Source: Sulfitobacter mediterraneus
GTDB lineage: Bacteria; Pseudomonadota; Alphaproteobacteria; Rhodobacterales; Rhodobacteraceae
Assembly: GCF_003054325.1 (NCBI RefSeq)
Contig: NZ_QBKU01000001.1
Location: 1 to 64,000 of the forward strand
Direction: 5' to 3'
DNA length: 64,000 bases
The notes under the pieces were generated by a model. That model was given only the letters and a program-made list of their open reading frames with translations, did not search any database and was not told the DNA's origin. Shown here piece after piece: positions 53,270-59,023 of the stretch (positions within the stretch are counted from its first letter, which is position 1; each line of letters opens with the position of its first letter). The position numbers and the translations under genes are program-made.

Positions 53270-54442
53270 ATGCGCCGCTTTTTGATCGCCGCTGCCCTGA
53301 CCGCAGCCCCCCTGACCGCCCTTGCCGATGTGCCCTGTGGCGGATCATTCTCCAAATTTGTGCAAGGTCTCAGAACCGAGGCCATTGCCGCAGGCATTGC
53401 GCCCAGCACCGCAAAAGCGTTCTTTGCCGGGGTCAAAAAAGACCCTGCCGTTCTGCGGGCCGACCGGAAACAAGGCGTGTTTCAGATCCCTTTTGTGGAT
53501 TTCTCGCGCCGCCTGATTTCCAACGACAGGATCAACAGAGGCCGCGCCAACGGCAAAAAATTCGATGCGATCTTTGACCGGATTGAAAAAACCTATGGCG
53601 TGGATCGCGGTGTCTTGCTGGCGTTTTGGGCCTTTGAAACCGACTACGGCAGCTTTCAGGGCGATTTCAACACCGCCAATGCCCTCGTCACCCTTGCACA
53701 CGACTGCCGCCGCCCCGAATTGTTCCGCCCGCAGGTCATCGCCGCGGTAGAGCTTTTTGCCCAAGGCGGGTTTGATCCGAAGTCCACCACCGGCGCATGG
53801 GCCGGAGAGATCGGCATGGTGCAAATGCTGCCCCGCGACATTCTGGAAAACGGTGTGGATGGCGATGGCGACGGCCAAGTGTCCCTCAAAACCTCCGCGC
53901 CGGATGCACTGATGTCGGGGGGTAAGATGTTGCACCACCTTGGCTGGCGCGCAGGCGAGCCTTGGTTGGACGAGGTTGCAGTTCCGAATGACTTCGATTG
54001 GTCCCTGACCGGGCTGGACGTCCAGAAATCTACGGCCGAATGGCGGGCACTGGGCGTCACTGCTCGCAACGGCGATCTTGCCAATGGATTGACGGCCTCC
54101 TTGCTATTGCCGCAAGGCCGCGGTGGCCCGGCCTTTATCGCTTACCCCAACTTCCGCGTCTATTTTGACTGGAACCAAAGCTTTACCTACGTGATGACCG
54201 CCGCCTATTTTGCCACCCGATTGCAGGGGGCCAAGGTCTTTGACGCTGGCAACCCCGAGCCGGGACTTGAAGGTGGCCAAATGAAACAACTGCAAACCAA
54301 ATTGCAGGGCCGTGGCTATGATGTGGGCGACATTGACGGTATCCTTGGCGCAAAGACCCGCACCGCGGTGCGCCGCGAACAGGCACGGCTGGGTCTGGCC
54401 GTTGATGGCTGGCCAACGCCCGCCCTTCTTGGCAAACTTTGA
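53270..54442 (+). CDS. Lytic murein transglycosylase (MltB-like) with peptidoglycan-binding domain
   Basis: A 390-residue exported enzyme. A signal peptide (residues 1-19, cleavage after LTALA) precedes the SLT_2 transglycosylase domain with catalytic Glu123 in WAFETDYGSF, and GEIGMVQMLPRDILENGVDGDGDG. A PG_binding_1 domain covers about 325-390 (LQTKLQGRGYDVGDIDGILGAKTRTAVRREQ). It cuts peptidoglycan to 1,6-anhydro-muropeptides in the periplasm. AAAGGA is just before the ATG. Confidence 0.94.
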   Translation: MRRFLIAAALTAAPLTALADVPCGGSFSKFVQGLRTEAIAAGIAPSTAKAFFAGVKKDPAVLRADRKQGVFQIPFVDFSRRLISNDRINRGRANGKKFDAIFDRIEKTYGVDRGVLLAFWAFETDYGSFQGDFNTANALVTLAHDCRRPELFRPQVIAAVELFAQGGFDPKSTTGAWAGEIGMVQMLPRDILENGVDGDGDGQVSLKTSAPDALMSGGKMLHHLGWRAGEPWLDEVAVPNDFDWSLTGLDVQKSTAEWRALGVTARNGDLANGLTASLLLPQGRGGPAFIAYPNFRVYFDWNQSFTYVMTAAYFATRLQGAKVFDAGNPEPGLEGGQMKQLQTKLQGRGYDVGDIDGILGAKTRTAVRREQARLGLAVDGWPTPALLGKL

Positions 54443-54454
54443 TCGGAGACTGAG

Positions 54455-54850
54455 ATGCCGCTGAAACGTACGTCTGCCCAAATGGTCGCCGAGGCCCGCG
54501 CCCGCATCGAGGAAATCGGCAGTGCGGATGGCATCGCGATGGCCAGTGATCCAAATGTTCAGATCGTCGATATCCGCGATCCCCGCGAACGGGAACGGGT
54601 CGGATTTATCCCGGGCAGTTTTCATTGTCCTCGCGGTATGTTGGAGTTCTGGGTGGACCCGGACAGCCCCTATTTCAAAGAGGTGTTTGGGGAGGATAAA
54701 AAGTTCGTCTTTCACTGCGCCTCCGGCTGGCGATCCGCCATTTCGGTAGCCACATTGCAAGACATGGGATTTGACGCCGCGCATCTCAAAGACGGATTTT
54801 CCGGATGGGAAAAGGCCGGGGGCCCAGTTGAAAAGAAAGCGGCGAAGTAA
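54455..54850 (+). CDS. Single-domain rhodanese-like sulfurtransferase
   Basis: A 131-residue rhodanese. The active-site Cys88 heads the loop CASGWRS, and VQIVDIRDPRERERVGFIPGS is the typical entry. It can carry persulfide sulfur; the partner is unknown. GGAGA precedes the ATG. It lies 12 bases after the transglycosylase gene and is followed by a bidirectional terminator. Confidence 0.93.
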   Translation: MPLKRTSAQMVAEARARIEEIGSADGIAMASDPNVQIVDIRDPRERERVGFIPGSFHCPRGMLEFWVDPDSPYFKEVFGEDKKFVFHCASGWRSAISVATLQDMGFDAAHLKDGFSGWEKAGGPVEKKAAK

Positions 54851-54952
54851 GATCGTGTTAACCATGCTGTGACAGGTAGATTGAAACTCAGAGCGGATTT
54901 GACTACTCTTGAGTTTCCGGCACGTGCATATTCGAACATATCACTGCAAAAA

Positions 54953-54982
54953 GACCCCGCAGAGCTGGTACTCTGCGGGGTC
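54953..54982. terminator. Bidirectional terminator between the rhodanese gene and a small minus-strand gene
   Basis: A perfect 12-bp stem GACCCCGCAGAG / CTCTGCGGGGTC with a 6-base loop (54965-54970). On the minus strand it is followed by TTTTT (54948-54952), on the plus strand by ACTTTTATT. The rest of 54851-55003 shows nothing else. Confidence 0.9.
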
Positions 54983-55003
54983 ACTTTTATTCAAGGGTTC
55001 GAA

Positions 55004-55093
55004 CTATCCCTCAAACAAAAGCCGGATGATCGTCGTCAGCAACGTCGCCGCCGCAATCAAGACCATCCACTTCCGGAACGTGTTTTCATTCAA
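55004..55093 (-). CDS. Candidate 29-residue single-helix membrane protein
   Basis: A short frame with a TTG start at 55093 and TAG at 55004-55006. The product begins MNENTFRKWMVLIAAATLL and continues through a hydrophobic helix to end RLLFEG, so it is a single-pass peptide with a basic end inside. The signal AAGGAGGTGAT (55099-55109) is close to the full anti-Shine-Dalgarno complement; its AGGAGG core ends 9 bases before the TTG. A strong terminator on the same strand lies 22 bases after the stop. A mini-frame ATG-GAT-TGA (55096-55098 onward) sits between the site and the TTG and is a rival start. No family is recognised. Confidence 0.55.
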   Translation of the reverse strand: MNENTFRKWMVLIAAATLLTTIIRLLFEG

Positions 55094-55177
55094 TCCATAT
55101 CACCTCCTTGCACCGCAACGGTTTGCGGCAGGGGCAGCCTAGGAATGATTTCTCAAGGAGGCGTTAACCACTAATTC

Positions 55178-55525
55178 TCAGGGACGGACAGGGAATCTCT
55201 GGCCGTCTTCGGTAACCATCACAACCCGCCCATGACTGCGCACAAATTGGTCGCAGCGCTGCCTACCATTTCGGAAATCCACACAGACAACACCATCCGG
55301 ATCAATCCGATACCGACCAAAAGCCGTGCCGCCGCCCGCGTAGGTATAGCTATAGGCACCCCCTACCGAATACTGCGACACACCACCTTCGAAGAAGACC
55401 AGAGATTGATTGGCAGTCAGTGCAATCACCTCTGGGCGCGGCAATGGCTGGTCGCCCTCCAATAGGGCAAAGCCGTCCGCCAAGGCGCAAACGGGGAAAC
55501 ACAAGATAAACAAAATGGATCGCAT
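55178..55525 (-). CDS. Small exported protein of unknown function
   Basis: A 115-residue protein with a signal peptide (MRSILFILCFPVCALA, cleavage probably before DGFALL). The mature part has a Gly/Tyr-rich centre (SQYSVGGAYSYTYAGGGTAFGRY) and a basic end with a Cys pair (VVCVDF...RCDQF) that may form a disulfide. It lies between smc upstream and the 29-residue gene downstream. Periplasmic location is likely; no function is visible. Confidence 0.75.
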   Translation of the reverse strand: MRSILFILCFPVCALADGFALLEGDQPLPRPEVIALTANQSLVFFEGGVSQYSVGGAYSYTYAGGGTAFGRYRIDPDGVVCVDFRNGRQRCDQFVRSHGRVVMVTEDGQRFPVRP

Positions 55526-55567
55526 GCAGAAAACCTATGCGATCACACCCGGCCAGAACACAAACGT

Positions 55568-58500
55568 TTACGCGACCAGCGTTTCCGCTTTCTTAAGATC
55601 CACCGAAACCAATTGGCTGACGCCTTGTTCGGCCATCGTGACACCAAACAACCGGTCCATCCGCGCCATGGTCACCGCGTGGTGCGTGATGATCAGGAAC
55701 CGCGTGTCGGTCTGACGGCACATCTCGTCCAACAGATCACAAAAGCGGGTGACATTGGCATCATCCAATGGCGCGTCGACCTCATCCAGAACACAGATCG
55801 GCGCGGGATTGGCCAGGAACACCGCAAAGATAAGCGCCATGGCCGTCAACGTCTGTTCGCCGCCCGACAGCAGGCTCAGTGTGCTGAGCTTTTTGCCCGG
55901 CGGTTGGCACATGATCTCAAGGCCTGCCTCAAGTGGATCATCGGATTCCACCATCACCAGATTGGCCTCACCGCCGCCAAACAGATGCGTGAACAACATC
56001 GAGAAGTTTGAATTCACTTGCTCGAAGGCGGTCAAAAGCCGCTCGCGCCCCTCACGGTTCAGGCTGGCGATACCGCTGCGCAGGGTCTTGATCGCCTCTT
56101 CCAGATCGGCCTTTTCATTGGTCAGGGTGTCATGCTCTTCCTGAACTTCCTTGGCATCTTCTTCCGCGCGCAGGTTGACCGCGCCCAATGCATCCCGTTG
56201 ACGCTTGAGGCGGCTCACGTCGGCCTCCAACGTGGTTGAAGGCGGCATTTGATCCGGGTTCACATCCAAAGAAGTCAGCAATTGGTTCGGTGTCATCTGG
56301 CTTTCTTCGGCAATCCGTTCGGCAGCAGCGCCAACGGTCTCCCGCGCCGCTTCTGCCAATGCCTCTGCCCGCGCCCGTGCCTCACGGGCCTCAGATGCCA
56401 GCCGCTCTGCATCGCGCTCCTGAACGGTCGCTTCGCGCAGGGTGGCCTCTCCGGTTGCCAGAGCCTGCGCCGCCTCGGTCCGGCGGCCCTCTGCCACAGT
56501 CATCTCCGAACTCAACTGGTCGCGTTTCGCGGCGATCTCTGCCGGGGCGGCGCTGGCCTCCTTTAGTTCCGCCTCTGATGCGGTCTTGCGCTCGATCAAC
56601 TCGGCGCTGCGTTTCTCTGCCGTCTCCAAACGGTGCCGCCAGCCGCTTAGCTCTTTGGTCACTTCTTGCGAACGGCGGGTGCGGGCCTCGCCTTCGCGGC
56701 GCAATTCATCATGGCCGGACCGGCGCGACATCATCGTGATCCGCGCGGCCTCTACCGTCATGCGGATGTCCTCGATGCCAGCCCGCGCCGCGCCCAGATC
56801 GCCCAGATCAGACAGAGCGCGTTCCGCCTCAAGCACGCGGCCCCGCGCTGCCAAGGCCTCGTCCTCGTGCCGCTTAACGGCCAGACCAAGGCTTTCCAAG
56901 CGCCCCTGTGCCAGATTGCGATCCGCCTCCGCACGGCTCAGGGCGCGGCCCGCATCCGCCACCATCCGGTCTGCTGTGCGCCGGTCTTCGCGGGCGCGTT
57001 TGTCGGCCTCAGATTGCTCGGCCAAGGTCCGGGTCAAAAGATCATGCGCCGCACGCGCCCCTTCGGCCCGCTGGCTGGCTTGTTCGAGCGATTGCTTGAG
57101 CACCTCAAGCCGGTTTAGTTGCTGTAACCGGAGCGCCGCCGCTGAAGGCGCATCTTCGGCCCAGGCGCGGAACCCGTCCCAGCGCCACAAATCCCCCTCG
57201 GGCGAGACGAGCCGCTGACCGGGCAGCAGGGCGGCTTGCATGGCAGGGCCGTCGTCGGGGTCGACCAAGCCGATCTGCCCCATGCGCCGCGACAGAACAT
57301 CCGGCACCGATACGTGCTGGGTCAGTGGCGTCACGCCGGTCGGCAAGGGCTGTGCCGTGTCATAGCTTGGCAATACCGCCCAGCCTGACGGACCGTCCGC
57401 ATCCACCTCTGGCGCCCGCAGATCATCTGCCAGGGCCGCGCCCAATGCCTTTTCAAACCCGTGTTCCACCTGCAGGCGGTCAAGGATCTGGCCACCCTCG
57501 GCCGTGTCGCGTTCCACCAGCTTGGCCAGCGCCGTTGTTTCCGCCCGCAGCGCGTTCATCTCGCCTTCGGCCTCGGATCGTTCGGCACGGGCTTCGGCCT
57601 CTCGGGTTTGGGTTTGTGCCCGCGTCTCCTCGGCGCGGATCAACGCCTCGTCCGCCGCTTTGGCGGCCGCGACAGCCTCGGCCTCGGCGATCTGAGCGGC
57701 TTCGAAATCATCGCCCGCCTTGGTCAACGCGGCCTGACTTTGCGCCACTGCATCATGGGCTTTCTGGGCTTCGGCCTCCGACCGGTTCTGGGTCTTGCGG
57801 CTGTCTTCAAGCAGTCGCTCTGCCGACCCGTGCCGCGCGGCAAGGCGGGCGACATCTTCGGTCTGTTGCGCCAGATCCCCCTCGCGGGCCTGCAACACCG
57901 CTGCCGCCTCTCGGGCCGCCTCGGATGCTGCCTCAAGCGCAGTGTCATGGCCTTCACCGGCCTTGGCCAGTTCGCGGGCTTCCCAATCCAACCGCTCAAT
58001 CGTTTCACCCGCGTCGCGGTTCAATCCACCCTCGCGCTCAATATCGCGCGCCAGTTGGGCAATCCGGCCCGTGAGCGTATCAATCGTCGCCTTGGCGCGG
58101 GTTTCCTGATCATCCAGCGTGTCGCGTTGCACCGTCAGGCGCTGCAAGACCGCAACCGCAATCGCCTCTTCCTCGCGCAGGGGCGGCAAGGCATCCTCGG
58201 CGAGCTGTCGCGCTTTGGCCGCCTGCTGTACGATGGCCTGCCCCTGACTGGCGGCGGTCACACGGTTGCGCAATTCCTCATCCGCCGCGGCACGGGCATC
58301 ATCCGCCTCGCGCCACCGGCGATACAGCAACATGCCTTCAGTCCGGCGCAGCTGATCGCCGATCTCGCGGTAGCGGGCCGCCTGACGCGCTTGCCGCGCC
58401 AATTGAGACAATTGCGCCGCCAGTTGTTCAATCACGTCATCCACACGGGCCAGATTGGTCTCTGCCGCGTTCAGCTTCAGCTCCGCCTCGTGGCGACGTT

Positions 58501-59023
58501 GGTAAAGGCCCGAAATCCCGGCGGCTTCTTCCAGAATGCGCCGCCGGTTCTTTGGCTTGGCATTGATCAGCTCGGCAATTTGCCCCTGCCGCACCAACGC
58601 CGGGCTATGCGCACCCGTTGAAGCGTCCGCAAACAGCATCTGCACATCCCGTGCCCGCACATCTTTGCCCGCTGCCTTATAGGCACTGCCCACATCACGG
58701 GTGATCCGGCGCACGATTTCAAGCTGGTCATTGTCGTTGAAACCGGCAGGTGCCAGCCGTTCGGTATTGTCGATATGCAAGGCCACTTCGGCAAAGTTGC
58801 GCGCGGGCCGTGTGGCCGCACCGGCAAAGATCACATCTTCCATACCGCCGCCGCGCATCGCGGTGGGACGGTTCTCCCCCATCACCCAGCGCAACGCCTC
58901 AAGCAGGTTGGATTTCCCACAGCCATTTGGCCCCACCACACCTGTCAAACCATCAGCGATGATCAGGTCGGTTGGATCCACAAAGCTTTTGAAGCCCGTC
59001 AATCTGAGTTTGGAAAAGCGCAC
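55568..59023 (-). CDS. smc: Chromosome segregation protein SMC
   Basis: A 1151-residue condensin ATPase that organises and segregates the chromosome with ScpA/ScpB. Walker A GPNGCGKSN is at residues 31-39. Two long coiled coils flank a hinge around residues 520-620. The C-terminal LSGGEQTLTAMALIFA signature and CVLDEVDAPLDDANV Walker B follow. The coils are very rich in Ala, Glu and Arg. No scp genes are near. The 167-base upstream region holds two TTATCCCCA boxes. Confidence 0.97.
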   Translation of the reverse strand: MRFSKLRLTGFKSFVDPTDLIIADGLTGVVGPNGCGKSNLLEALRWVMGENRPTAMRGGGMEDVIFAGAATRPARNFAEVALHIDNTERLAPAGFNDNDQLEIVRRITRDVGSAYKAAGKDVRARDVQMLFADASTGAHSPALVRQGQIAELINAKPKNRRRILEEAAGISGLYQRRHEAELKLNAAETNLARVDDVIEQLAAQLSQLARQARQAARYREIGDQLRRTEGMLLYRRWREADDARAAADEELRNRVTAASQGQAIVQQAAKARQLAEDALPPLREEEAIAVAVLQRLTVQRDTLDDQETRAKATIDTLTGRIAQLARDIEREGGLNRDAGETIERLDWEARELAKAGEGHDTALEAASEAAREAAAVLQAREGDLAQQTEDVARLAARHGSAERLLEDSRKTQNRSEAEAQKAHDAVAQSQAALTKAGDDFEAAQIAEAEAVAAAKAADEALIRAEETRAQTQTREAEARAERSEAEGEMNALRAETTALAKLVERDTAEGGQILDRLQVEHGFEKALGAALADDLRAPEVDADGPSGWAVLPSYDTAQPLPTGVTPLTQHVSVPDVLSRRMGQIGLVDPDDGPAMQAALLPGQRLVSPEGDLWRWDGFRAWAEDAPSAAALRLQQLNRLEVLKQSLEQASQRAEGARAAHDLLTRTLAEQSEADKRAREDRRTADRMVADAGRALSRAEADRNLAQGRLESLGLAVKRHEDEALAARGRVLEAERALSDLGDLGAARAGIEDIRMTVEAARITMMSRRSGHDELRREGEARTRRSQEVTKELSGWRHRLETAEKRSAELIERKTASEAELKEASAAPAEIAAKRDQLSSEMTVAEGRRTEAAQALATGEATLREATVQERDAERLASEAREARARAEALAEAARETVGAAAERIAEESQMTPNQLLTSLDVNPDQMPPSTTLEADVSRLKRQRDALGAVNLRAEEDAKEVQEEHDTLTNEKADLEEAIKTLRSGIASLNREGRERLLTAFEQVNSNFSMLFTHLFGGGEANLVMVESDDPLEAGLEIMCQPPGKKLSTLSLLSGGEQTLTAMALIFAVFLANPAPICVLDEVDAPLDDANVTRFCDLLDEMCRQTDTRFLIITHHAVTMARMDRLFGVTMAEQGVSQLVSVDLKKAETLVA

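Follow-up and report, generated by a model that had tools for sequence, protein, structure and literature searches.

Known type I systems and the present locus

In silico prediction of type I toxin-antitoxin systems is difficult, according to PMC12390103, which gives Proteobacteria, Firmicutes, and Tenericutes as the only phyla in which such systems had been identified. The closest described system is the par locus of plasmid pAD1. As outlined in the accessible part of PMC7472228, it consists of convergent RNAs (RNA I and RNA II) with a shared terminator, DRa and DRb repeats, a 5' stem-loop, and a GUG start for the 33-residue peptide Fst. The same part of that paper defines the Fst/Ldr signature as a Trp residue between the transmembrane helix and a charged C terminus, together with a P/D/S/TXXXG motif. 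It describes par-type layouts in Firmicutes and states that the Gram-negative members of this peptide superfamily are regulated differently, the regulation of ldr/rdl being more like that of hok/sok.

A survey of open-license papers on type I toxin-antitoxin systems in Rhodobacter, Roseobacter, Alphaproteobacteria, and Sinorhizobium/Caulobacter, or on CtrA and toxin-antitoxin systems, yielded no description of a locus like the one presented here; the survey was at the level of listings and is weak evidence. The locus is probably a new variant of the par-like type I toxin-antitoxin module, with a peptide outside the Fst/Ldr superfamily, found in Rhodobacteraceae only.

The 29-codon gene and its product

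The locus lies in the window, that is, the whole 64-kb stretch of DNA that was analyzed. On its minus strand, smc is followed by a 115-codon gene, a 29-codon frame, and a hairpin terminator (Table 1), past which genes for a rhodanese-domain protein and an SLT_2 transglycosylase enter from the opposite side. The small membrane-peptide gene that the earlier note had placed here, with a TTG start, a strong Shine-Dalgarno (SD) sequence, and a terminator, is borne out by the sequence.

Table 1. Features of the locus in the window, listed along the minus strand
Feature	Position	Strand	Description
smc	55568..59023	-	
115-codon gene	55178..55525	-	exported-looking product
CtrA full-site-like box	55153..55167	-	TTAA-cgcctcc-TTGA, 7/8 positions
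Putative -10 of sense promoter	55136..55141	-	TAGGCT; hand-read, with weak column signal
5' hairpin	55112..55129	-	18 nt, 7-bp stem and 4-nt loop; ends 2 nt before SD
Shine-Dalgarno sequence	55099..55109	-	AAGGAGGTGAT; strongly conserved in 55 copies
Direct repeat, first copy	55071..55103	-	DRa, SD end and start; DRb, codons 5-8
29-codon gene, TTG start	55004..55093	-	TTG...TAG; peptide MNENTFRKWMVLIAAATLLTTIIRLLFEG; proposed type I toxin-like peptide
Terminator hairpin	54953..54982	.	GACCCCGCAGAG-TACCAG-CTCTGCGGGGTC; 13 pairs, then TTTTT
Direct repeat, second copy	54915..54944	- (as written)	beyond terminator; antisense RNA has its complement
Putative antisense RNA	54916..54990	+	about 75 nt; start and end predicted
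Putative antisense promoter	54881..54909	+	TTGAAA, 17 nt, TACTCT; -10 weak here, better in most relatives

The peptide has a charged N terminus with RKW, followed by a hydrophobic core (hydropathy of 2.45 over residues 10 to 23) and R24, and is conserved as a protein. W9, located N-terminal to the helix, is present in all 24 rows of the peptide alignment; W26, near the C terminus, is common without being conserved and has no charged tail after it. Homologues are mostly 28 to 30 residues long. This organization points to a single-helix membrane peptide, which would insert into the membrane.

Database searches find no known RNA family at gathering score in the window and, around the locus, only 8 weak RNA-family matches at E ≤ 5, all under the gathering score. 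Matches to known protein families are weak as well, that of the window peptide being to YtcA (E of 0.0031; 18.4 bits versus a cut-off of 28.8). None of 24 members matches the Fst or Ldr family (Pfam at E ≤ 10, NCBIfam at E ≤ 1), and no P/D/S/TXXXG(C) motif is conserved in the peptide helix. Because the peptide lacks a Trp followed by a charged C-terminal tail after the helix, as well as the motif and any profile match, membership in the Fst/Ldr superfamily was rejected.

The pN/pS ratio in the peptide frame is 0.49 across codons 9 to 27, the two other frames giving 1.12 and 1.50, and pN is lower than pS in 324 of 325 pairs. These values are for 26 of the 29 readable copies, with G007, G333, and G412 left out. 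A frame conserved in relatives, with mostly silent change, was the test that the earlier note had set, and the gene passes it. These comparisons indicate that the 29-codon frame is under purifying selection and that the gene is real. It forms half of a larger unit. A chance ORF in an intergenic region, one among the many short ORFs of the mechanical listing, deserves practically no credence, given the conserved frame, the pair counts, and the occurrence of the unit in dozens of genomes.

Shine-Dalgarno sequence and start codon

AAGGAGGTGAT has a single exact copy on the two strands of the window, and its AAGGAGG ends 9 nt 5' of the TTG. Its conservation is seen in column profiles drawn from 55 of the 64 copies. 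Among the 62 copies readable at the start column (G452 and G022, which could not be anchored, are not among them), this codon is CTG in 47, GTG in 5, TTG in 3, and ATC in 2, with ATA, CTT, ACT, GGG, and CCG in one copy each; G323 is one of the CTG copies and G412 one of the GTG copies. The rival ATG-GAT-TGA mini-frame mentioned in the earlier note is indeed present at the window locus, yet ATG is found in the start column of none of the 62 copies, the window included.

Five copies, among them that of the window, have an in-frame TGA at the SD end, so that translation there has to begin at the codon 9 nt downstream; one of these, G441, has GGG in the start column and is probably dead. An in-frame GTG overlaps the SD in 53 of the 62 copies, which makes the start codon uncertain in those copies, and an ATG follows GGAGG after just 2 nt in 15 of the 62. 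Judging from the start column, initiation at CTG is likely.

Leader hairpin and putative sense promoter

The 5' hairpin lies directly next to the SD. When the copies are read in a fixed frame, 53 of the 64 form all 7 stem pairs and 5 further copies form 6. The stem covaries, with a score of 0.371 versus 0.215 after shuffling (0/500 shuffles), at most 0.142 for slid versions, and 90% of the cells paired, although the relatedness of the copies can inflate such shuffle tests. The signal from pairs changed on both sides is weaker and is matched by 21 of the 500 shuffles. The hairpin is the probable 5' end of the mRNA: the column profiles have a weak TA...T signal with a spacing that would suit a transcription start at the hairpin.

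The full-length mRNA (54945 to 55129, minus strand) is predicted, by a fold that had no control, to pair its SD with the terminator tail in a 5'-3' closure. The SD is largely paired in most of the predicted full-length folds, likewise uncontrolled, and is not contained in the hairpin.

A consensus scan for ordinary sigma-70 promoters finds none in positions 53500 to 56500, and the TTAA box is the better fit for the sense promoter. In 29 of 32 copies, a TTAA-N7-TTAA-like box begins 57 to 62 nt upstream of the SD. The box matches at 7 or more of its 8 positions in 20 of the 32 (z of 16.3), as against 0/32 in control windows and 0 to 5 of 32 for other spacings (z of 1.9 to 9.2); the near-duplicate of G073, G007, is omitted from these counts. 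In the second genus surveyed, the box reaches at least 7/8 in 17 of 31 copies, other spacings do so in 1 to 7 of 31, and the control in 0/31.

In the part of PMC6180460 that was available, TTAA-N7-TTAA is given as the CtrA full site, located near -35 when activating, and the corresponding part of PMC4046655 employs TTAA-N7-TTAAC for Dinoroseobacter shibae. The present promoter thus resembles the CtrA-dependent promoters of Rhodobacter sphaeroides and D. shibae, as far as these sources describe them, in having such a full site near -35, a placement that depends on the predicted start site. The genome of the window encodes a CtrA orthologue (202 aa aligned with a Caulobacter fragment at 75% identity). 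The motif and its spacing suggest that CtrA perhaps activates the sense promoter.

Terminator, direct repeats, and predicted antisense RNA

The earlier note had described the terminator as the gene's own. The strong hairpin stands; it also scores as terminator-like on the plus strand and probably serves both directions, in which case it would be shared with a predicted converging antisense RNA that the note overlooked. Terminator-like calls mean little by themselves, because the 3-kb stretch around the locus contains 3 of them and its shuffled versions average 4.0, which puts their number not above the shuffles. A search for the terminator motif in 345 genomes of the family finds one copy in each of 7 genomes, with the peptide gene just upstream in 6 of the 7 (the window's included; 5 of the 6 others). 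One copy per genome in the 7 carriers does not support a mobile repeat.

When the units are read side by side, the second copy of the direct repeat usually has the shorter gap between DRa and DRb. The two copies change together. In 28 units (the deletion copy L136 and the chance match L140 being omitted), the start region scores 34.2 against its own post-terminator region and 18.9 against swapped ones, the best of 20,000 permutations reaching 24.2; the own partner is the best of its row in 15 of the 28. The predicted energy of the RNA duplex is -38.3 kcal/mol for own partners versus -23.8 kcal/mol for swapped ones (0/20,000 permutations), the own partner being best for 24 of 33. The 31 copies of the second genus, collected after the idea had been formed, include many close relatives, several of them near-identical. 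They give -38.8 versus -24.2 for the duplex and 35.2 versus 21.2 for the repeat score (0/10,000 in each case), with the own partner strictly best in 17/31 and 13/31, respectively.

Paralogues within one genome also pair best with their own partners. The self versus cross duplex energies are -42.7/-39.0 versus -18.2/-30.1 in G920, -38.7/-37.5 versus -14.6/-20.0 in G1011, and -43.5/-47.9 versus -24.9/-20.7 in G980, and the three G1020 paralogues behave likewise. Separate specificity is thus seen in four of the five genomes with paralogues. The exception is G1024, whose upstream copy (G1024a) has unspecific pairing, no recognizable terminator, and its CTG out of frame; as the terminator was not found, its repeat test ran with a wrong boundary. 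Some copies with an open frame pair poorly with their own partner, namely, G333 (-18.9; rank 23 of 33), G313 (rank 9), and G957 (rank 3). Rank 2 is held by G276, G471, G007, and G073, and G412 is fourth in the repeat score yet best in duplex energy. The worst cases include the decayed copies G452 and G022. By sequence and predicted energy, the repeats would permit pairing in trans at the SD and the start codon.

Most units have a sigma-70-like promoter directed back toward the terminator, typically TTTACT, 17 nt, and CATCAT or TATATT, with the -10 ending 36 to 51 nt from the terminator. The -10 of the window is weak, matching 3 of 6 positions in a count by hand. With a -10 position range picked after inspection, the promoter score is at least 8 in 20 of 32 units (G007 omitted as a near-duplicate of G073), compared with a mean of 1.9 and a maximum of 6 in shuffles and 3 on the other strand. 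In the second genus, for which this range had already been set, 25 of 30 copies (G1024a omitted) reach this score, the shuffles having a mean of 1.6 and a maximum of 5 and the other strand having 2. An RNA from this promoter would begin within the second repeat and end at the terminator.

The spacer between the antisense -35 and -10 is often similar, TTTTTGGCAAGGAAT-like, beyond the plain need of sigma-70, and is possibly a regulator site.

If the locus were simply a small-protein gene translated constitutively and closed by an ordinary terminator, with the distal repeat as a duplication relic without RNA function, the ORF, the SD, and the terminator would be enough. The repeat that changes together with its partner across genera and the backward promoter at a fixed distance after it make this explanation highly improbable.

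Distribution and gene neighborhood

In the genus of the window, smc is present in all 62 genomes surveyed and the stretch behind it is readable in 61 (short in G076 and G032); an intact homologue follows smc in 5 of the 62 (the window, G007, G073, G010, and G082). A search with a 10-row profile finds the unit or a recognizable remnant in 25 of 394 Rhodobacteraceae genomes, which come from 393 genera, about one genome per genus. Four of the 29 matches were judged to be chance: G160, G282, and G362, which lie in frames of 562 to 614 residues, and, after reading, G419. The second genus carries 33 copies, damaged ones included and several in tandem, in 27 of 84 genomes (G968 and G1037 being excluded from 29 matches). 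All these counts are lower bounds, as the profile's first look was loose and short peptides are easily missed.

Two Ruegeria genomes, Pelagimonas varians, and one Rhodobacteraceae metagenome-assembled genome (behind L009 to L012) have no match at E ≤ 0.01. A class-wide search of 385 genomes gives, besides the window's own, a single match, within a 592-residue frame. In 244 genomes of the order, many of which may themselves belong to Rhodobacteraceae, 10 of 11 matches are real (G160 was dropped), all in Rhodobacteraceae. The class and order genomes searched contain no real match outside this family. Plasmid and phage searches find no copies, with a 28-residue query of little power, and of 21 stretches of viral contigs that fit a pattern, none was confirmed.

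Within 1.5 kb, smc is upstream of 23 of 28 units and the SLT_2 gene is convergent with 23 of 28. The earlier note had placed the gene downstream of the 115-residue gene and predicted its conservation there. The unit is conserved, with smc as the usual upstream partner; the 115-residue gene is near only 7 of the 28 units, one of which has it at the far side.

The 115-residue protein, encoded directly behind smc in the window, belongs to no Pfam family; its named relatives point to Rhodobacteraceae as the family concerned. Its YSYTYAGG-like and FPVRP stretches are kept in relatives, and its gene is found in many, though not all, genomes of the window's genus.

Tandem units are found in L145 (G920), L152 (G1020), L154 (G1011), and L159 (G1024), with repeats that are mostly self-matching; Ldr loci, too, occur as tandem copies. 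G980 (L182) and G1020 (L181) have an additional distant copy with a variant peptide, RTVM or RLVM replacing RKWM. The damaged copies comprise G022, G452, G919, G441, G443, G994, and G1024a, as well as G1020b and G192 with a moved stop, and the alteration hits the peptide frame, the start, or the length. G022 is frame-shifted, with a damaged SD. In the damaged G919 and G441, antisense pairing remains strong (-40.6 and -36.7). This is the pattern that one would expect if the toxin were lost first, in a class that is small and defined by the authors and has G333 as a counter-case. G004 (L086) retains, at about positions 260 to 470, the hairpin, the SD, a single copy of the repeat, and a -35-like site, TTTACC; it lacks the peptide body and the terminator, as though a deletion had run from one direct repeat to the other.

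The location behind smc, the single copy in most carrier genomes, and the CtrA-like box give the unit a host-integrated look. They would suit a harmless small membrane protein under antisense control, such as one that regulates a protein of the envelope or of division, that is off except under certain conditions; the toxicity of the peptide, moreover, is deduced from the layout. Type I toxins, in contrast, would be expected to occur patchily and to decay, to form tandem copies whose repeats have diverged, to start at codons other than ATG, and to pair tightly with an antisense RNA; all of this makes the harmless-protein explanation an unlikely one, if still to be reckoned with.

Comparison with par and predicted mechanism

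As far as the available part of PMC7472228 describes pAD1 par and the par-like loci on Firmicutes chromosomes, the unit has, as judged here by sequence, the same predicted convergent layout with a terminator that is probably shared. It further resembles pAD1 par, as presented there, in the two-part direct repeats over the start region, the 5' stem-loop by the SD, the non-AUG start, and the hydrophobic peptide of about 30 residues. In contrast to the par and Fst/Ldr features given in that source, the conserved Trp and the charges precede the helix, whereas the Fst/Ldr Trp follows it, and the 5' hairpin abuts the SD, whereas the par stem-loop contains it. The host group is another one, and the promoter has a CtrA-like box. 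With Ldr/rdl and hok/sok of Gram-negative bacteria, the unit shares a short membrane peptide and a predicted antisense RNA; it differs from them, so far as the same source describes them, in its par-like terminator and direct-repeat layout.

Because its parts match those of the pAD1 par locus in the available account (PMC7472228), we read the unit as encoding an antisense-silenced, probably toxic membrane peptide. From the conserved ORF, the covarying hairpin, the co-changing repeats, the motif of the antisense promoter, and the spaced TTAA box, we infer the following model. The minus-strand RNA would begin at or near the 5' hairpin and would encode the 29-residue membrane peptide, whose translation would begin at a codon other than AUG, preceded by an almost complete SD. 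On the plus strand, a short RNA would start in the second repeat copy and converge on the same terminator. It would pair in trans with the mRNA over the SD, the start codon, and codons 5 to 8 and thereby block translation. The free peptide, when unrepressed, would be toxic.

More tentatively, and with rather less confidence than in the module as such, the units could form a par-type lineage of one alphaproteobacterial family in which the cell-fate regulator CtrA switches on the toxin mRNA. With near-cognate starts (mostly CUG) and an almost full match to the anti-SD, the peptide would then be made only in CtrA-active cells where the antisense RNA is outrun.

A par-layout module with an unrelated peptide, spread over a single family of Alphaproteobacteria, would imply that this arrangement either arose twice or traveled. 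If a type I toxin carried a CtrA box, the module would be linked to the circuit that governs cell differentiation in these bacteria. The start column, with no ATG in 62 copies, provides a natural set of variants in which CUG initiation could be studied.
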